Assembly (NCBI GenBank): GCA_903875575.1 | Contig: CAIQWJ010000010.1 | Coordinates: 1-64,000 of the forward strand | Direction: 5' to 3' | Origin: an uncultured Acidobacteriia bacterium | GTDB taxonomy: Bacteria > Acidobacteriota > Terriglobia > Bryobacterales > Bryobacteraceae | Length of the DNA stretch: 64,000 nucleotides | Made by a program: the position numbers and the translations under genes | Shown here: in pieces, positions 13,608-23,275 of the stretch | How the letters are laid out: each line of letters starts with the position of its first letter | How positions within the stretch are numbered: the stretch's first letter is position 1 | Notes under the pieces: model-generated | The model's input: only the letters and a program-made list of their open reading frames with translations | The model's database searches: none | What the model was told of the DNA's origin: nothing

Positions 13608-13880
13608 GTGGACGAGCGCGCGTACTATCAGGAATCGAAAACCACCAAGCCGATCACGCTCAACTGCCCCGCGTGCCGGACGCAGGATACGTACGATCTG
13701 AATTGGATCGTGCAGAAGAAGAAGGACCGTTTGCCTGGCGGGGCCGATGAGCGTGATCGGGCAAAGTTTGCCAAGGCGCAGAGCTACATGGTGCTGATGG
13801 ATAACCAGGCGGTCTGTAAGAACGTGCGCTGCCGGAAACGCTTCGATATTTCCGGCGTTAAGACGATGGCGTTTTTGTAG
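13608..13880 (+). CDS. Hypothetical protein with CxxC pairs
   Basis: 90-aa ORF with GTG start 4 nt after citrate synthase; CPACRTQ and CKNVRCRKR. Confidence 0.6.
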   Translation: MDERAYYQESKTTKPITLNCPACRTQDTYDLNWIVQKKKDRLPGGADERDRAKFAKAQSYMVLMDNQAVCKNVRCRKRFDISGVKTMAFL

Positions 13881-14742
13881 GCGGCACGCCTGGGTTGTTG
13901 CGGTAGCTTTCGAGCATGGCGGCGGTGATTTCCACGCTGGAAGGCCAGTGGCCGCGACGTTGGGCTGCGTGCGTAGCGTAGGTTTCGAGGTTTGCAGGAT
14001 CAGGCTGGACGACTTTTCCGTATTCGAGGAAAAGGAGTCCGGCCTTTTCCGTTGGCATTTGAATCACGAAGGCCTCGGCTTCTTCGAGGATGGTGCGAAC
14101 GCGGCGCATGATGGCGTCGGGGTCAATGGGTTGATCGCTGACGATTTTTGGCCACTCGGACTTTGGGTAGTTTGAATTGCGCCGGATCTCGGCAATGAGA
14201 CCCTCCGGCGTGAAGCCGGGAGCCTTATCGACGGCGGCCCAGAGGATCGCACCTAAGGGCAGGATGGTGTCATGGACGGTCACGAGGTCCACGATGTCGC
14301 GGACTTCCCTGCGGCCGGCAGCAGCCATGGCCTTGTTGGTGGCCAGATCGACAGGGTGCAAGACATACCCGAAAGTCGGGTCCGGAATAGTCGGGAAGAA
14401 TCGATAATCGCTGTCAGCAACCCATTCGAGTCGCGTGCTCTCTCCGTCTTTTTCCACTTGAGCGGTATAGATCAACGGGAGTACGCGATTCCAGGAAATC
14501 CTGAACCCATTTGCTTCGAGGATTGCGCCGTCTTCGCGGGCGGCCACCGCGATCCGTTCGCTCCGGTCGTGGAAGACGTCGATATCCGATGAATAACGAG
14601 GCGAGTTCAGATTGATCGGTGTCCCGCCGGCTACATAACTCTCCGGATCGCGATGCGCGGCAATAAGACTGAGGACGTCCGATTGAATCTTAGACAGAGG
14701 CACGGCAGGCACGCTCAATTTGCTCCGCCAGGCGGCGAGCAT
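13858..14742 (-). CDS. Nucleotidyltransferase, AbiEii-toxin-like
   Basis: GGTPIN..SSDIDVFHD nucleotidyltransferase signature; alternative GTG start at 14703 overlapping the upstream stop. Confidence 0.75.
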   Translation of the reverse strand: MLAAWRSKLSVPAVPLSKIQSDVLSLIAAHRDPESYVAGGTPINLNSPRYSSDIDVFHDRSERIAVAAREDGAILEANGFRISWNRVLPLIYTAQVEKDGESTRLEWVADSDYRFFPTIPDPTFGYVLHPVDLATNKAMAAAGRREVRDIVDLVTVHDTILPLGAILWAAVDKAPGFTPEGLIAEIRRNSNYPKSEWPKIVSDQPIDPDAIMRRVRTILEEAEAFVIQMPTEKAGLLFLEYGKVVQPDPANLETYATHAAQRRGHWPSSVEITAAMLESYRNNPGVPPTKTPSS

Positions 14743-14902
14743 TCATATCACCCTCTATGCGAAGGCTCCTGGTGATCGTCAGGGCTTCCTCCGGAGTGGG
14801 GTGTTCGAGTTCGCGCTGGTTCCAGAGTGCGCGGACGCGATAATCCGCGAACGCACGGTGGTACAAAGCCTCGATCTCGGACTGGGAAGATTCCGCGTTC
14901 AT
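14690..14902 (-). CDS. Small hypothetical protein, putative partner of the nucleotidyltransferase
   Basis: Start moved to ATG at 14902 (MNAESSQSEIEALYHRAF), preceded by GAGAGGAGATCT; overlaps the next gene. Confidence 0.6.
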   Translation of the reverse strand: MNAESSQSEIEALYHRAFADYRVRALWNQRELEHPTPEEALTITRSLRIEGDMNARRLAEQIERACRASV

Positions 14903-14999
14903 AGATCTCCTCTCTTCCAGCATATATGCCAGGCATCCGGCTTGTCTGCCTGGCGAAAGGGCGCGAAGTTGCTCTATATACTGAAGACAGCCATCGTCA

Positions 15000-15605
15000 A
15001 TGTCAGAAACTCCCGTTGACACATCACGTTTGCTGGTGGAGCGTGTCCGGAGCGGGGATCCGGCGGCGGAAGACGAACTGGTCCGCGCTTATCTTCCGAG
15101 GGTCATCGCCTTCGTGGTGGTTCGCACGCAGGACCGGGATCTGGCCCGCGAACTCGGACAGGATGTCATCATGGCCGTTCTGTGCGCGCTGCGAGAAGGC
15201 AATATCCGGGAGCCCGATAAACTGGGTGCCTTCGTCTACGGTATTGCCCGCAATCTCCTGAATGATCGTCATCGAAAACGTGCCAGGGAGAAACTGGAGC
15301 CTCTTCCGCCAGGCTTTGACCAGGCGGAAGCGCGGGTTGATCAGGCGGAGACAGAGCGCCTCGCGGTGGCGCATCAGGCCATCGATACACTGGAGCCTTC
15401 CGACAGGAAAATCCTGCTTTTTACGCTGGTGGACGGAATGAAACCTGCCGAAATCTCAGAGGCCGTGGGTCTTAGTTCCGTGGTGGTGCGGCAGCGCAAG
15501 AGCCGGGCACTGAAAAAAGTGATCGATATGGTAAACGCGTTGTCACAAAGTGCAGGTCCCGGACGACTACACAATTCAGGGAGACGTGCCAATGAATTGC
15601 GATGA
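15000..15605 (+). CDS. ECF-type RNA polymerase sigma factor
   Basis: 201 aa; region 2 (DPAAEDELVRAYLPRVIAFVV..DLARELGQDVIMAVL) and region 4 (LEPSDRKILLFTLVDGMKPAEISEAVGLSSVVVRQRKSRALKK). Confidence 0.9.
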   Translation: MSETPVDTSRLLVERVRSGDPAAEDELVRAYLPRVIAFVVVRTQDRDLARELGQDVIMAVLCALREGNIREPDKLGAFVYGIARNLLNDRHRKRAREKLEPLPPGFDQAEARVDQAETERLAVAHQAIDTLEPSDRKILLFTLVDGMKPAEISEAVGLSSVVVRQRKSRALKKVIDMVNALSQSAGPGRLHNSGRRANELR

Positions 15606-16365
15606 CGTGCGCCGCGACGATATTCCCGAACGCTACGTAGCGGGAAAGTTGCCGGAAGGGGAACGCGACGGGTACGAGGCCCATTACTTCGAGTGCGAGA
15701 CGTGCTTCGCCGGGTTGGAGGCGATCCGGGCTGTCCAGTCTGATTTGCGGGGGAATGAGTCTGCCATCCGCGCGCTGCCGGCACCGCGCAAGGTCATCGT
15801 CATGCGTTTCGCCGTCCCGCTGGCACTGGCGGCGGCGATTCTTCTTGCCGCAGTGCTCTACCGAGCGCAGAACCAGGCTGTGCCTGCCGTTCCTGTGGCC
15901 GTTTCGCCGAAGCCCGTGGACTACACCCTGCTGGCGAAGCTGGAGCCACCCGCCTACGAGCCGGCACTGCGGCGGGGTTCGGCGGACAAGGCGGCCCTGC
16001 GGTTCGTTCAGGCAATGGAAAACTATCGCCGGCGCGACTACGCTCAGACGATCGCAGGACTGCATGCCTCTTTGGCGTTAGATTCCGGAGCTGCGGCTCC
16101 CCGCTTTTTCCTCGGTGCCTGCGAACTGCTGACGGGCGACTGGGACCAGGGGACTCGGGATCTGGAAATGGTGGTCGCGTCGGGTTCCGGGCCATTTCTG
16201 GAAGAGGGGCTGATGCTGCTGGCTAAAGCGTCCCTGCATCGTAATGATCCGGCAACTGCGCGGCGGGAACTGGAGCAACTGGTGGCGAGCAAAGGGGACC
16301 TCGCGCCCGCTGCCGGCGAGTTGCTGCGCCAACTGGATGATCTATCATCGGGGCAAGGGAAATAG
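15592..16365 (+). CDS. Putative membrane anti-sigma factor: zf-HC2-like zinc finger, TM, extracytoplasmic TPR-like region
   Basis: Start trimmed to ATG 15592, 14-nt overlap with sigma gene; HYFECETC (HxxxCxxC), TM FAVPLALAAAILLAAVL, TPR-like C-terminus. Confidence 0.8.
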   Translation: MNCDDVRRDDIPERYVAGKLPEGERDGYEAHYFECETCFAGLEAIRAVQSDLRGNESAIRALPAPRKVIVMRFAVPLALAAAILLAAVLYRAQNQAVPAVPVAVSPKPVDYTLLAKLEPPAYEPALRRGSADKAALRFVQAMENYRRRDYAQTIAGLHASLALDSGAAAPRFFLGACELLTGDWDQGTRDLEMVVASGSGPFLEEGLMLLAKASLHRNDPATARRELEQLVASKGDLAPAAGELLRQLDDLSSGQGK

Positions 16366-16380
16366 GCGATTGCTTTCGTT

Positions 16381-19300
16381 ATGGAGAGCTCGGGGTTGAT
16401 CGGGGTTCGGAGCGGATTTTGGTGTACGGGGGCCAACCGGGCTTCGTGTGCACTGCTCTTTGCTGAGTTGTTCGCAGTGATCTCACCGCTGCCCGGCCGC
16501 TGCCAGGCACCCGATCCGCGATTTGCCCGGATCGCCGAATTGCTGGCCGACTCCAACGCCGCTGACGCGCTGCCCGTGGCAAAGAGCCTGGTGGGAGATC
16601 TCGAAAAACAGGGTGGCACCGCAGTTGCTGGCTTCGTGGACGCTCTGGATCTGCTCATTGACGCGAGCGTTACGTCTGGCACGCCAACCCCGGCAGTGGT
16701 GGAACTGGTGGACCGGGAGGTGAAGCTGAAGTCCGGGTTCGAAGGTCCGGAGAGCGTCGGTGTGGCGAAGACGCTTAGTCTGCTGGGTACTCAGTATTTC
16801 CGGACCGGTGATTACAAGACGGCGATTGCGACGCTGGAACGCGCACTTGCGATAGAGGAAGCGCACGAGACGACGCCGGTCGGTCAGTTGACGCGAACTC
16901 TGAATGTTCTGGGGCAAGGCTACTCGGAGTCCGACCAGGGAGCGCGGGCCGTCAGCACGCATCAGAGGTCTCTCGCCCTGGCGCAAAAAGAATTCGGAGC
17001 GGAAAGCAGGGAGGCGGGTGCGGTGCTGTCCCTGCTGGGCGGCGACGAATGCGCTCGGGGAGATCTGAAAGCGGCGAAAGACTACGTGACCCGTTCCACA
17101 AAAATTCTGGAAGCGTCCGGACCGGAGAGGCTGGATACGGCGGTCGCGCTGGGGATTCTGGGATCGATTTATCGGGAACTGGGCGACGTGGCGGGGGCCA
17201 TACCGCTGATGCGGAGGGCGATCGCGGGCCACGAAAAAGTTTTGGGGCCCGACCACCTTCGCCTGGCGGCTCAGTACAACAATCTGGGCCTCGCGCTCAA
17301 TACGTCGGGTGATACACAGGCGGCGCGCACGGCCCTCGAACATGCGCTGGCTATCAGCGAGAAGAATCTGGGGCCTGATGCCACCGCGACGGCTACTGTT
17401 TTAGGGAATCTGGGGATTGCCCTGGCTGCGGGTGGCGACAATGTCGGAGCCCGTGATGTCTACGAACGCGCGCTCACGATCCAGGAGAAGAGGCTTGGAC
17501 CTGAGCACCGCCTGGTGGCGGGGTTGCTCTTCAGTCTGGGCATGGCGCTGGGCCACACGGGAGATATGAAAGCCGGGCGTCAGCGAATCGAGAGATCTTT
17601 CGCGATCTATGAGAAGACCCTGGGGCCGGAGAATCCAAAAACTCTGCAGGTACTGACGAACCTGGCCGACTTCATGGACAAGACGGGCGATACCGTCGGC
17701 GCGCGTGCCGCTTTCGAACGCGCATGGAAGGCAGAGCAGCGGACGCTGGGCGATGACAATCCGTTCACGGCGGACTCGCTGTTTCAACTGGCCCGGTTCG
17801 ACGAGGATACCAATCCGGCGCTCGCAAAAACCCGTTTTGAAGCGGCTCTGAAAGTGCAGGAGGCTGTTCCGGGCCCCCCGAATCCCAGAATTCCCAATAC
17901 CCTTCTGGGACTGGCGCGCGCCGAGATCAATCTCCGCGACTATGCCGCGGCTTTACCGCTGCTGCGCAGGGCGTCCGGGATCTGGACCGGCCTGTACGGC
18001 ACGGGCTTTCCCTCGCGGGCAAATGCGCTGGCCGGCGAGGCGAACGCCCTGCTGCACCTGGGACGAAGCGACCAGGCTTTCCGGGTTGCCCTGGATTCGG
18101 CTGAGGTGCGCCGTGCCAACGTTCTGACTATCACCCGCAACGTGGGAGAAGTTCAGGCGCTGGAGGTTGTAGGTTCGGATCGCGAAGGGCTGAATATTGC
18201 CCTGCAGCTTGCTCCGCACGCCTCGCCGGAAGGTCGGGCGGAGGTATGGAATGCGCTCATTGAAGAGCGTGCTCTGGTGCTGGACGAAATGGGCAGGCGG
18301 CATCGTGTCGCACGGAATTCCGCGAACCCGGAAGTCGCGGCGCTCGCCTTGAATGTTGCCAACGCCCGGGACTTGCTGGCGCGCACCGTGGTGGTGGGGC
18401 CCGGCGATCGGGCCAAAACGTACACCGACCGTGTGCAGGCCCTTCATGACCAGCTGGAGGTATCCGAACGCGCTCTGGCAAGGGCCAGCGTGGCGTTCCG
18501 GCGGGATCTGCAGGCGGAACAGGTGGGCCTGCCGGAAGTGGTCGCGGCTCTGCCCGCGCATTCCGCTTTGATTGGCTACGTCCACGAGGGAAGTTCGTAT
18601 CTGGCATTCGTGATTGCCAGCGGGCAGAAGACGCCGGTTGCCGTGCTTCTTGGTACGGCGGAAAAGATTGAATCGCAGGTCGCGGCCTGGCGCTCGCAGA
18701 TTGATGTGGAGCGCGATTCCCTGGGGCGGGCGGCAAAGCAAAACGAAGCGTCATACAGGGTGGCTGGCTCCGCCCTGCGCCGCTCCGTGTGGGATCCGCT
18801 GGCGGCGTATCTTGTTGGTGCCCGGCAGGTTTTTATTGTGCCGGATGGCGCTCTGCAGGTCGTGAACTTTGCGGCACTGCCGTCAGGCCAGTCGGGTTAT
18901 CTGGTGGAAACCGGGCCGGTGTTGAACTTTCTCTCCGCCGAACGCGATCTGGCGGCACCTGCCGTTCCCGGCTCCGCCACTGAATTGCTCTCCGTGGGAA
19001 ATCCGGCCTTTTCCGCATCGAAGGCGACGGGGTTGCTGATCTCGGATAACACACGTTACCGCGGCAACCGCGCCGCGTGCCCCGGTTTCGCCAGTCTGGA
19101 TTTTCCCGAACTGCCTGGTTCGGCCGGCGAGGTCCAGGCAATTAACAAAATCTGGCGCGATCAGGGGCTTCCCGTCAACTCGCTAACGGGTTCCCGCGCT
19201 ACCGAGGGTGCACTGAAGGAGCAGGTGGCGGGCAAGCGCGTTGTTCACCTTGCGACGCATGGCTTCTTTCTGGGAAAAGACTGCCGGACTACGGGGGAAT

Positions 19301-19752
19301 TGCGCGAGAATCCGCTTCTTCGATCCGGCCTGGCGTTGGCCGGCGCCAATCATCGCGCCACGGCCGGTCCGAACGACGAGGACGGCATTCTAACCGCGGA
19401 AGAGGTAGCTTCGCTGGACCTGGATGGGGTGGATTGGGTGGTGCTTTCCGGCTGTGACACTGGATTGGGTGACATCCAGGAGGGTGAGGGCGTGCTTGGG
19501 TTGCGCCGCGCCTTTCAGGTGGCGGGCGCACGGACGCTGATCTCCAGTTTGTGGTCGGTGGGCGACGAAGACGCGAGGGACTGGATGGTGGCACTCTATC
19601 GTTCCAGGTTTGTGCGGGGGACTTCGACGGCGCAGGCTGTCCGAGTCGCCTCGACAGCCAGTTTGCGTTCCCGCCGGGCGGCAGGGAAGACAACACATCC
19701 GTTCTACTGGGCGGGATTTATCGCGGTGGGCAGTCCCGAAGTGAAACCCTGA
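16381..19752 (+). CDS. TPR-CHAT domain protein (caspase-like peptidase)
   Basis: 1123 aa; many kinesin-light-chain-like TPRs (LGPDHLRLAAQYNNLGLAL), C-terminal CHAT with HLATHGFF (His960) and LSGCDTG (Cys1025). Confidence 0.93.
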   Translation: MESSGLIGVRSGFWCTGANRASCALLFAELFAVISPLPGRCQAPDPRFARIAELLADSNAADALPVAKSLVGDLEKQGGTAVAGFVDALDLLIDASVTSGTPTPAVVELVDREVKLKSGFEGPESVGVAKTLSLLGTQYFRTGDYKTAIATLERALAIEEAHETTPVGQLTRTLNVLGQGYSESDQGARAVSTHQRSLALAQKEFGAESREAGAVLSLLGGDECARGDLKAAKDYVTRSTKILEASGPERLDTAVALGILGSIYRELGDVAGAIPLMRRAIAGHEKVLGPDHLRLAAQYNNLGLALNTSGDTQAARTALEHALAISEKNLGPDATATATVLGNLGIALAAGGDNVGARDVYERALTIQEKRLGPEHRLVAGLLFSLGMALGHTGDMKAGRQRIERSFAIYEKTLGPENPKTLQVLTNLADFMDKTGDTVGARAAFERAWKAEQRTLGDDNPFTADSLFQLARFDEDTNPALAKTRFEAALKVQEAVPGPPNPRIPNTLLGLARAEINLRDYAAALPLLRRASGIWTGLYGTGFPSRANALAGEANALLHLGRSDQAFRVALDSAEVRRANVLTITRNVGEVQALEVVGSDREGLNIALQLAPHASPEGRAEVWNALIEERALVLDEMGRRHRVARNSANPEVAALALNVANARDLLARTVVVGPGDRAKTYTDRVQALHDQLEVSERALARASVAFRRDLQAEQVGLPEVVAALPAHSALIGYVHEGSSYLAFVIASGQKTPVAVLLGTAEKIESQVAAWRSQIDVERDSLGRAAKQNEASYRVAGSALRRSVWDPLAAYLVGARQVFIVPDGALQVVNFAALPSGQSGYLVETGPVLNFLSAERDLAAPAVPGSATELLSVGNPAFSASKATGLLISDNTRYRGNRAACPGFASLDFPELPGSAGEVQAINKIWRDQGLPVNSLTGSRATEGALKEQVAGKRVVHLATHGFFLGKDCRTTGELRENPLLRSGLALAGANHRATAGPNDEDGILTAEEVASLDLDGVDWVVLSGCDTGLGDIQEGEGVLGLRRAFQVAGARTLISSLWSVGDEDARDWMVALYRSRFVRGTSTAQAVRVASTASLRSRRAAGKTTHPFYWAGFIAVGSPEVKP

Positions 19753-19977
19753 ACTTCGCAGTGGCCAGACGACCAGCGGGGACTCGCGCGTTGACGAAGC
19801 GGGCGTACTCGCGGACTGGCACGATATGTCTCCTGATCGCCCTATGGATCTTCCGGCTGCCGGAGCAAACAGGCAGTCGGAAGATCCAATCCGCAAAGAT
19901 CTGATTTTTTTTGTCACAAAGCGCTCTTTGCCCGCTACCTCCCTGTGTATCTGCCAGTGCGGGGTCCAGAGGGCAAA

Positions 19978-20322
19978 ATGTCTGCAGCTATTTCCGGAGT
20001 TGGCGCTAAAGTCCGCTGGGGGATCTTTCTCGTCCTGTGTTTCGCCCATGTGAGCGGAGCCAGCGCGTTGATCCGTGGAGCCGTGCGCCCGGAGGAAGTT
20101 GCCGCCGAGCCGCGCCAGACTGTGGCGGGGATGGCATCGCGCGCGGTTACGACCGCGACTGCGGTGGCGGCATCGGAGGCTCGCATTACGGACTTCGGAG
20201 AGGGAGGTTTCCGGTCTGAAAGAGCCGGTGCCGGAAGTTTCCTGTTCGACGACAATGGCGGTTCAGCGGGCGATGAACCTGCGGCTGCAAACGAGGCAGA
20301 TCCGAAAAAGCCGGCAGAATGA
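19978..20322 (+). CDS. Small exported hypothetical protein
   Basis: ATG at 19978; hydrophobic N-terminus VRWGIFLVLCFAHVSGASA; lies between CHAT and VWA genes. Confidence 0.4.
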   Translation: MSAAISGVGAKVRWGIFLVLCFAHVSGASALIRGAVRPEEVAAEPRQTVAGMASRAVTTATAVAASEARITDFGEGGFRSERAGAGSFLFDDNGGSAGDEPAAANEADPKKPAE

Positions 20323-20423
20323 CGTTCTCGGCCGCGAATTCCATTTGCGGAAAAGGGGTCTTCCGGAATTAACCTGTTCCCTTTATGGCTGTGCTAGACT
20401 CCTTCCATAAGGGGAAGCACCCG

Positions 20424-21443
20424 ATGCCATCCCGATACATGATCTTCGTCCTGGCTGCCGCAGCCATATGCTTTCTTGCGGCCGATCAGAGCTCGCAGGC
20501 AGCGCCGCAGACTGCGGCAACCATTACTTCGGGCGACGCGCCCGCCAGTATCGTTCCGCGCTCCAGGCCTGCGGAAGAAGCGGCGGTTCCTCAGGCTAAA
20601 GCGAACATTCGCGTCGATACGAACGTGGTTCTGGTTCCGGTCACGGTGACGGACCCGCTCAATCGATTTGTAACAGGACTGGATGAGGATGCTTTCGAGG
20701 TTTACGAAGACAAAATCCTTCAAAAAATTGTCTCCTTTGGAAGTGAGGACTCGCCTTTATCCATCGGCATTGTGTTCGATACCAGCGCCAGCATGGGGAA
20801 CAAGCTGGAGCGCTCCAGGCTTTCGGTGGCCGAGTTTTTCAAGACAGCGAACCCGGAAGACGAAGCATTCCTGGTTGAGTTTAACGACCGTCCGCAACTG
20901 GTAGTTCCTCTCACCCACAATCTGGAAGACATTCAAAACCGATTGACCTTCACTCAGTCCAAGGGCAAAACTGCCCTGCTGGATGGCATCTACCTGGCGC
21001 TTTCCACGATGAAGAAAGCCAGAAATCCCCGAAAAGCGCTCATCGTGATCTCCGATGGCGGCGATAACAACAGCCGCTACACCGCCACGGAAGTGAAGAA
21101 TCTGGTGAAGGAAGCTGATGTGCAGATCTACGGTATTGGTATTTACGAATCCGGGCCAAACCGGGGCCGGACCGCGGAAGAGCTTTCGGGGCCGGAAATG
21201 CTTCGGGATCTCTCGGAACCAACGGGCGGGCGTCATTTCGTGGTGGAAAGCCTGACGGAGCTGCCTGACGTGGCTGCAAAAATTGGCGTGGAACTCCGTA
21301 ACCAATACGTAGTCGGTTATAGTCCCACCAATCAGGCACGCGATGGAAAATACCGCAAGATTCAGGTCAAACTCGTTCAGCAGCGCGGCCTTCCGACGCT
21401 GCATGCTTTCTGGCGGACGGGCTATTTTGCCCCGACTCAGTAG
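20424..21443 (+). CDS. VWA-domain protein 1 (VWFA-related), exported
   Basis: ATG 20424 with AAGGGGA upstream and signal peptide MPSRYMIFVLAAAAICFLAA; MIDAS DTSAS. Confidence 0.85.
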   Translation: MPSRYMIFVLAAAAICFLAADQSSQAAPQTAATITSGDAPASIVPRSRPAEEAAVPQAKANIRVDTNVVLVPVTVTDPLNRFVTGLDEDAFEVYEDKILQKIVSFGSEDSPLSIGIVFDTSASMGNKLERSRLSVAEFFKTANPEDEAFLVEFNDRPQLVVPLTHNLEDIQNRLTFTQSKGKTALLDGIYLALSTMKKARNPRKALIVISDGGDNNSRYTATEVKNLVKEADVQIYGIGIYESGPNRGRTAEELSGPEMLRDLSEPTGGRHFVVESLTELPDVAAKIGVELRNQYVVGYSPTNQARDGKYRKIQVKLVQQRGLPTLHAFWRTGYFAPTQ

Positions 21444-22320
21444 AGCGGCGGCCGCCGGTTTGGCCGTAGCGCTGGCGCTGACTGCCGCTCCGCCGCCTTC
21501 AATCGTCCAGATACCTGTGACCATTACCGATTCTCTCGGCCGATCATTCAACGGTCTGGATGCGGGCGATATTGCGGTCTACGAGGACAATGTTCGGCAG
21601 AAAATCGTTTCCTTCGGGCGCAGCGACACCCCGCTTTCCATCGGGATCGTGCTTGATACCAGCGCCAGTATGGGAAATGCGCTGGAACGTTCCGTCCTGG
21701 CGGCCAACGGACTTCTGAAGACTCTGAATTCCGGCGATGAGGCGTTTCTGGTAGAAGTCAGCGACAGGCCGCAATTGACGGTCGCGTTCACCCATCGGCA
21801 GGGGGACATCCAGGCCCGACTGGCTTCGGCGCAGCCAGTGGGCCGTACGGCCCTGCTGGACGCCATCTATCTGGCGCTCTCAACCATGGAGAAGGCGGCG
21901 AATCCCCGAAAGGCGCTGATTGTGATCTCGGATGGTCTCGATCATGGCAGTGTTTATACTGCGGCAGAGGTGGGGAACCAGGTCCGCAGGGCGGACGTCC
22001 TGATCTTTGGGATTGGGGTGCGCGATTCCAGCGGGCCGCGCGCACGCTCCCCGGAGGACCTCGCAGGTCCGGAAGCGCTGCGGAGTCTATCGGAACCCAC
22101 CGGAGGACGTCTGTTCACAGCAGAGGCGTCCGGCGATATGGCTGACGTAGCAGCTAAGATTGGAATTGAGCTTCGCAATGAATATGTCGTCGGCTACACT
22201 TCGGAAAATCAGGCACGCGATGGGAAATACCGAAAGATTCAGGTCAAACTTGTTCACCCACGGGGCGCTCCAGCCCTGCACGCGTACTGGAGAACCGGCT
22301 ATTTTGCCCCGACGCAGTAG
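21427..22320 (+). CDS. VWA-domain protein 2 (VWFA-related), exported; probable TTG start
   Basis: TTG 21427 gives signal peptide (M)PRLSRAAAAGLAVALALTAA; MIDAS DTSAS; close paralog of VWA 1. Confidence 0.8.
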   Translation: MPRLSRAAAAGLAVALALTAAPPPSIVQIPVTITDSLGRSFNGLDAGDIAVYEDNVRQKIVSFGRSDTPLSIGIVLDTSASMGNALERSVLAANGLLKTLNSGDEAFLVEVSDRPQLTVAFTHRQGDIQARLASAQPVGRTALLDAIYLALSTMEKAANPRKALIVISDGLDHGSVYTAAEVGNQVRRADVLIFGIGVRDSSGPRARSPEDLAGPEALRSLSEPTGGRLFTAEASGDMADVAAKIGIELRNEYVVGYTSENQARDGKYRKIQVKLVHPRGAPALHAYWRTGYFAPTQ

Positions 22321-23275
22321 GCGCAGGGCGTGGGTAGCCGCGAGCGCTTTTGCTTTGGTGTCGCTCAGCGCCGCCGGATCGCGTCCGTTGTTGGCCCAGA
22401 CCCCCGCCGAAACCGCGGAGCCGATCTTTTCTACGGAAACCCGGCAGGTCCCGCTTAATGTGACCGTCACGGACAAGAACGACCATCTGGTGCTCAATCT
22501 TCAGGAAAGCGCCTTCCAGATCTTCGAAAATAACGTTCTGCAGCCTATAAAATTCTTTCGGCATGAGGATGTGCCGGTCTCCCTGGCGCTGGTAATCGAT
22601 AACAGCGGCAGCATGCGCAGCAAACGGCAGGGAGTCGAAGCCGCGGCGCTGGCGCTGGTGAAGGACTCTAACCCTCAGGACGAGAGCATCGTAGTCAATT
22701 TCAACGACGAAGCCTATCTGGACGCAGATTTCACCAGCGACATCAAGGTGCTCCAGTCAGGTCTGGAGCGTATTGACTCTAAAGGTGGGACCGCCATGCG
22801 GGACGCCATCCGCATGTCGATTGACCATTTGCATGACAAGGCGAAGCGGGATAAGAAAGTGGTGATTGTGATCACCGATGGCAACGACAACGCCAGCATG
22901 GTGACGCTGGATAGCCTGGTGAAGCTCGCCCAGCAGGACGATGCCCTGATCTATGCGATCGGACTGCTGGGTGAAGAGGATAAGTCGGAAGCCGCCAAGG
23001 CCAAGCGGGCTCTCAAGTTGCTGGTGGAGAGCACTGGCGGGCAGGTGTTTTACCCGAAGGACGTCAGCGAGGTGGAGCCGATTGCCCACCAGGTGGCGCA
23101 CGATATCCGCAACCAGTACTCGATCCTCTACTCACCCGTGAACGAGAAGCTGGATGGATCCTTCCGGGCGGTCAAGGTGGTGGTGAAGGCTCCGGGCAAC
23201 CCGGTTGCACGCACTCGTATGGGCTATTACGCCACGCCGTCGCGCAAACCATCCGGTAACAGGAACCCGCAGTAA
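22304..23275 (+). CDS. VWA-domain protein 3 (VWFA-related), exported; probable TTG start
   Basis: TTG 22304 gives (M)PRRSRRRAWVAASAFALVSLSAAG; MIDAS DNSGS. Confidence 0.8.
   Translation: MPRRSRRRAWVAASAFALVSLSAAGSRPLLAQTPAETAEPIFSTETRQVPLNVTVTDKNDHLVLNLQESAFQIFENNVLQPIKFFRHEDVPVSLALVIDNSGSMRSKRQGVEAAALALVKDSNPQDESIVVNFNDEAYLDADFTSDIKVLQSGLERIDSKGGTAMRDAIRMSIDHLHDKAKRDKKVVIVITDGNDNASMVTLDSLVKLAQQDDALIYAIGLLGEEDKSEAAKAKRALKLLVESTGGQVFYPKDVSEVEPIAHQVAHDIRNQYSILYSPVNEKLDGSFRAVKVVVKAPGNPVARTRMGYYATPSRKPSGNRNPQ

Follow-up and report, generated by a model that had tools for sequence, protein, structure and literature searches.

The window, a stretch of 64,000 nucleotides, is part of contig C10; the genome comprises 6.0 Mb in 110 contigs and was judged to be acidobacteriotal from its VWA family and from named relatives. 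On its forward strand, genes for an ECF sigma factor (15000..15605), a transmembrane anti-sigma factor (15592..16365) and a TPR-CHAT protein (16381..19752), hereafter the trio, are followed by three genes coding for VWA proteins. A preliminary description of this DNA had reported all of these open reading frames with correct coordinates and a common orientation, and its assignments for the trio held in the following analyses.

The 201-aa sigma factor is a standard ECF member of the sigma-70 family. It scored 69.1 bits against TIGR02937 (cut-off 42.9), regions Sigma70_r2 and r4_2 were over their cut-offs, and 12 orthologues could be aligned. Its gene overlaps that of the anti-sigma factor by 14 nt, as had been described, when counted from the ATG at 15592, a conserved start codon; the mechanical ORF begins at a GTG at 15550. 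The anti-sigma factor had been presented as zf-HC2-like, with a membrane segment and an extracytoplasmic TPR-like region. It stayed under the cut-off of Pfam zf-HC2 itself (E=0.006), though it carries the zinc motif of the ZAS class, C-x(24-32)-H-x3-C-x2-C, in the complete form C-x27-H-x3-C-x2-C, the four ligand residues of which were invariant in 13 orthologues. Hydropathy located a sole transmembrane (TM) segment at residues 82-100, numbered from GTG 15550 (15793..15849, + strand), matching a helix at 88-107 in a confident AlphaFold2 model (mean pLDDT 88.9). Behind it, the model places TPR helices at 147-266, a domain also backed by Foldseek, and an extended yet ordered stretch precedes the first of these helices. 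With a single TM segment, the predicted topology would put the TPR domain on the extracytoplasmic side. Stand-alone TM-TPR proteins homologous to this half of the anti-sigma factor were observed at loci L058, L059, L060, L061, L062 and L064, with zinc finger, sigma and CHAT genes all absent nearby.

The third protein, of 1123 aa, is a putatively exported, caspase-like TPR-CHAT peptidase. It scored 225.9 bits against PF12770 (cut-off 24) and contains 8 TPR_12 stretches, in line with its earlier naming. The predicted catalytic residues are His960 (19258..19260), a histidine in 65/65 aligned sigma-linked CHATs, and Cys1025 (19453..19455), a cysteine in 67/67. With its CHAT fold and this His/Cys dyad, the protein qualifies as a PF12770 clan CD peptidase, and its modelled fold resembles separase, Csx29 and DdvA.

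The VWA genes and the flanks of the locus

The three tandem VWA genes (20385-21443, 21343-22320 and 22160-23275, + strand) belong to family acidobact_VWFA, with 222, 186 and 222 bits against TIGR03436 (cut-off 81.25), well in keeping with their first annotation. They had also been proposed as partners of CHAT, an idea that did not survive: the genome contains about 36 matches to the family above its cut-off, and no VWA genes were found after the other trios of the family. The array was thus rejected as a component of the module and, on present evidence, its position is a neighbourhood accident; the alternative offered at the time, a separate unit, is the one favored by copy number and by the absence of VWA genes beside other trios. 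The gap between CHAT and the first VWA gene is 632 nt rather than the roughly 670 nt first given. The 125-aa ORF inside it (19945..20322, + strand), described as a small exported protein, is not called a gene here because it matched no family and has a weak third-position GC signal (GC3 0.60 versus GC2 0.59); it is left outside the module. Two further features were observed in this region. A T-run followed by GTCACAAAG occurs near 19905-19925, ahead of the VWA genes, although such cases were few, and the VWA gene junctions, 21262-21443 and 22139-22320, hold a direct repeat of 182 nt with 77% identity, the mark of a tandem duplication.

The trio locus is accessory. This CHAT was not found in 18 other genomes of the genus. 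In the 13 of these whose DNA was read, the genes for citrate synthase and a zinc-ribbon protein situated upstream of the module here were present, followed by neither trio nor VWA genes within the DNA available. GC content is 62-64% across most of the trio versus about 58% around it. Signs of mobile elements were sought at the locus, with no tRNA, no flanking repeats and an empty plasmid search as the outcome. An AbiEii-like nucleotidyltransferase gene, just below the Pfam cut-off (13858-14742, - strand), neighbours the module within the segment that congeners lack; together with a 110-aa ORF (14690-15022, - strand), it may form a toxin-antitoxin pair.

Conservation of the sigma, anti-sigma and CHAT association

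There is little doubt that the sigma factor, the anti-sigma factor and the TPR-CHAT protein constitute a functional module. A family search was performed on 150 genomes with the anti-sigma factor alone as query, and the DNA around the best matches was then read. The sigma/anti-sigma pair was adjoined by CHAT, or by the start of an exported protein at a contig end, in 9 of the 10 informative family loci. The order sigma-anti-sigma-CHAT was found in L047, L048, L050, L052, L055, L056 and L057, the start of an exported protein occupied the CHAT position at the contig ends L046 and L049, and CHAT was absent beside the pair in L051 (1/10). A CHAT gene was also present in 28 of 40 further loci, chosen by anti-sigma similarity only in a phylum-wide profile search. 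Among Acidobacteriota, four arrangements were encountered (sigma-anti-sigma-CHAT, CHAT-sigma-anti-sigma, divergent and convergent). Trios were found, for example, in a Candidatus Solibacter MAG (L148) and, outside this phylum, in Saprospiraceae (L199) and Ignavibacteriae (L161). Conservation of this neighbourhood in relatives had been named in advance as the point on which the preliminary proposal could fall; the survey left it standing.

CHAT proteins are common in environmental bacteria, and what is known of their functions comes largely from CRISPR and gasdermin systems. To keep the choice of loci independent of the result, a sample blind to neighbourhood was also drawn: from each genome, the one or two CHAT genes with the highest scores were taken regardless of their neighbours (n=41). 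An ECF sigma gene lay within 2.5 kb of CHAT in 20 of the 41, about 3 being expected, and in 13 of the 41 it was upstream on the same strand. The probability of this excess is about 1e-13 at the ECF density of the window genome (48 over cut-off), applied to all genomes, and below 1e-6 even assuming p=0.15, values to be read in the light of phylogenetically non-independent loci and of a sigma model that was widened on the fetched loci. Tree distances of sigma, anti-sigma and CHAT were correlated over 39 loci (r=0.40-0.62), shared ancestry being still included in these coefficients.

The association takes several forms. The window genome contains a second set in the order CHAT-sigma-zf-HC2 (G000:C67:18121-22116; L253, L011), in which the extracytoplasmic domain of the anti-sigma factor is not of the TPR type. 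Another trio (L065:6052-10350) combines an anti-sigma factor having a different, non-TPR extracytoplasmic domain with a CHAT protein having an additional N-terminal domain, suggesting that the sensor part can be exchanged. At least 32 CHAT genes occur in a single genome of the phylum sample (G200). No single ORF fusing sigma, anti-sigma and CHAT was seen among the loci searched.

A search upstream of the sigma genes found no shared promoter motif. The sequence TTTGTGACA occurred in 3 of 97 upstream regions versus 0.14 expected, and was not found before the window sigma gene. In two trios (L047, L048), TTTTTGTGACA was observed at -48 and -82 ahead of the sigma gene, again in few cases.

Export signals, fused relatives and a conserved arginine

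CHAT very likely resides in the periplasm. Hydropathy placed a hydrophobic export signal near residues 21-39 of the window protein, with a long n-region and borderline hydrophobicity. The preliminary description had noted neither this signal, nor the second set in the genome, nor the absence of the stretch from congeners. Comparable signal-peptide-like N-terminal stretches were found on the CHATs of the trio loci read, and a crude hydropathy rule detected an export signal in 55 of 67 sigma-linked CHAT ORFs, some of the other 12 possibly reflecting mechanical ORF starts set too early. With such signals, CHAT would be expected to encounter the anti-sigma factor on its TPR side, in the periplasm. 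This location is the chief point of difference from the type III-E CRISPR analogy first drawn. The majority of CHATs without sigma linkage look exported too and, since about half of the blind sample lacked a sigma neighbour, CHAT proteins must have other roles as well.

DdvA is the partner of the ECF sigma factor DdvS in Myxococcus xanthus, a pair which controls a CRISPR-Cas system. When the profile of sigma-linked CHATs was compared with the PDB, the best match was 8rot/8rw5 (E=2.6e-11), followed by Csx29 (3e-6) and then by separase; Foldseek names the matched chain transmembrane anti-sigma factor DdvA (PDB 8ROT, 8RW5, 8RLZ), and residues 10-91 of this chain match the zinc-finger/TM profile of the window type. 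In the myxobacterial genomes read, several CHAT genes encode zinc finger, TM, TPR and CHAT as a single chain beside an ECF sigma gene, a fused form found in myxobacteria and not among the other loci searched. The window thus holds the split counterpart of these chains, and the fact that the genes are fused elsewhere speaks for a physical partnership between the window anti-sigma factor and CHAT.

These fused proteins bear on one alternative, in which CHAT is an output: the sigma factor would drive its own operon and CHAT would be an exported effector peptidase acting on other envelope targets, next to an ordinary anti-sigma factor. ECF operons are often autoregulated and many exported CHATs have no sigma neighbour, both of which are in keeping with such a role, but the myxobacterial chains place CHAT inside the anti-sigma factor, CHAT-first and divergent gene orders would be less expected of a downstream effector, and no shared promoter motif was found. 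We consider this explanation unlikely.

Between its TM segment and its TPR domain, the anti-sigma factor reads PPxYxxxxxRG, and the arginine of this segment, Arg142 from GTG 15550, marks a candidate cleavage or docking site, Arg142-Gly143 (15973..15978, + strand; R128-G129 from ATG 15592). An equivalent arginine was present in 31 of 32 sigma-linked anti-sigma factors versus 0 of 5 solo TM-TPR paralogues (L058-L062), which come without zinc finger, sigma factor and CHAT. Of the extracytoplasmic positions conserved at 90% or more, Arg142 alone showed this linked-versus-solo pattern. Arg-Ser/Gly was retained in 5 of 6 zinc-finger-bearing fused DdvA-like proteins; among fused proteins without the zinc finger, the arginine was lost in three and kept in one (L263). 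The distinction is less sharp elsewhere: Arg-Gly/Ser anywhere after the TM segment separates CHAT-linked (34/44) from unlinked (7/16) anti-sigma factors weakly (p=0.03), and the arginine also occurs in anti-sigma factors without an adjoining CHAT (L051, L072, L083 and L090).

Clan CD peptidases, separase and gingipain among them, often cleave after arginine, and Arg142 is hence a natural candidate for the P1 residue. The AlphaFold2 model shows the segment ordered beside the TPR domain (pLDDT about 90), so that a docked peptide fits as well as a cut site, and a docking role for this candidate residue is as possible as a P1 role. Cleavage by CHAT at Arg142 is put forward as a tentative and somewhat doubtful suggestion.

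The ordered segment is also compatible with a second alternative, in which CHAT acts as a sensor or co-inhibitor without proteolysis: its TPR scaffold would dock on the TPR domain of the anti-sigma factor, and binding would set sigma activity, as perhaps in DdvA. TPR scaffolds exist on both proteins, and DdvA bears CHAT on the anti-sigma chain itself. As the fused chain carries CHAT within the anti-sigma factor, the gene linkage would follow just as well from a structural or sensory role. The His and Cys residues, invariant in all aligned sigma-linked CHATs, argue instead for a selected enzymatic activity, and a purely non-proteolytic CHAT appears rather improbable to us.

A proposed sigma switch and its known counterparts

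The leading hypothesis is a peptidase-controlled sigma switch. It is based on the gene linkage in several orders, the export signal, the catalytic dyad, the arginine and the existence of a fused form. In its specific version, a split DdvS/DdvA-type switch with CHAT most likely cutting the anti-sigma factor, we give it an even chance; the proteolytic step taken by itself, CHAT cleaving the anti-sigma factor, may take place, at a probability that we set just short of even. The zinc-finger domain of the anti-sigma factor would hold the ECF sigma factor at the inner membrane, its TPR domain lying in the periplasm, where the exported TPR-CHAT protein would act as well. A putative envelope signal, which the TPR scaffolds probably sense, would lead CHAT to cut the anti-sigma factor, most likely between the TM segment and the TPR domain with Arg142-Gly143 as candidate site, making CHAT a site-1 protease. 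The membrane stub might then be passed to an RseP-like M50 protease and the sigma factor be freed, in this presumed order.

A broader version can be formulated, namely that exported CHATs are widespread caspase-fold site-1 proteases which open ECF sigma switches by cutting anti-sigma factors after a conserved arginine located between the membrane and the TPR domain, the same position being a self-cleavage site in DdvA-type chains. We regard it as speculative and, on balance, doubtful. If true, it would account for roughly half of the acidobacteriotal CHAT genes in the sample and would tie caspase-fold proteolysis to envelope signalling. The site-1 reading also suggests a role for the CHAT domain of DdvA, and points to one residue, Arg142.

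The preliminary description had drawn its analogy from type III-E CRISPR systems, in which Csx29 cuts Csx30, an inhibitor of the sigma factor (PMC10028731). The analogy stands in principle, the Csx29/Csx30/CASP-sigma system and the window having in common a TPR-CHAT peptidase, a sigma inhibitor and an ECF-like sigma factor (PMC10028731). A literal transfer to a cytosolic switch, with CHAT cutting a cytoplasmic part of the inhibitor, could invoke this precedent, the same domain pair and the similarity of folds. However, the Csx29 system is cytosolic and RNA-guided, with its CHAT protein bound to Cas7-11 in the cytoplasm, and has no export signal and no ZAS or TM anti-sigma factor, whereas the window has all three. 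Moreover, the window CHAT is nearer in sequence to DdvA than to Csx29, and PADLOC gave no CRISPR match on the trio and VWA proteins, the trio matching only a generic TPR model. A Csx29-like switch is therefore highly improbable here.

Other caspase-fold genes have been linked to sigma factors, in metacaspase-sigma operons of Myxococcus (PMC3501461) and in EACC2-caspase systems with an ECF sigma factor and a DUF1822 TPR protein, for which a regulatory link was proposed (PMC8195603). As far as the parts of these two reports consulted here go, the proteins in question belong to Peptidase C14 or EACC2 rather than to CHAT, and an exported peptidase with a ZAS-TPR anti-sigma factor is not described in them. 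Nor was an exported TPR-CHAT protein with such an anti-sigma factor found in the literature searched, a coverage that leaves aside the ECF classification and the DdvS/DdvA papers. The DegS/RseA/RseP cascade shares with the window a membrane anti-sigma factor, a putative extracytoplasmic site-1 position and an M50 protease in the genome, such genes being also present in every control genome; DegS is a PDZ serine protease, whereas the proposed site-1 enzyme of the window would be of caspase fold.

The closest counterpart is DdvA. Both systems have a zinc-finger anti-sigma N-terminus, one TM segment, a TPR-CHAT fold and the His and Cys residues, and a comparable Arg-Ser/Gly lies between TM segment and TPR domain in the DdvA-like fused relatives. 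The window also has the extracytoplasmic TPR domain, by its predicted topology, and an ECF sigma gene overlapping the anti-sigma gene in what is predicted to be the same operon. DdvA is one polypeptide, whereas in the window the anti-sigma factor and an exported CHAT are encoded by two genes, and both proteins have a TPR array of their own; CHAT is not on the anti-sigma chain, and the trio was for this reason not filed as DdvA. As judged from sequence, it would represent this type of sigma switch in a split instead of a fused form.
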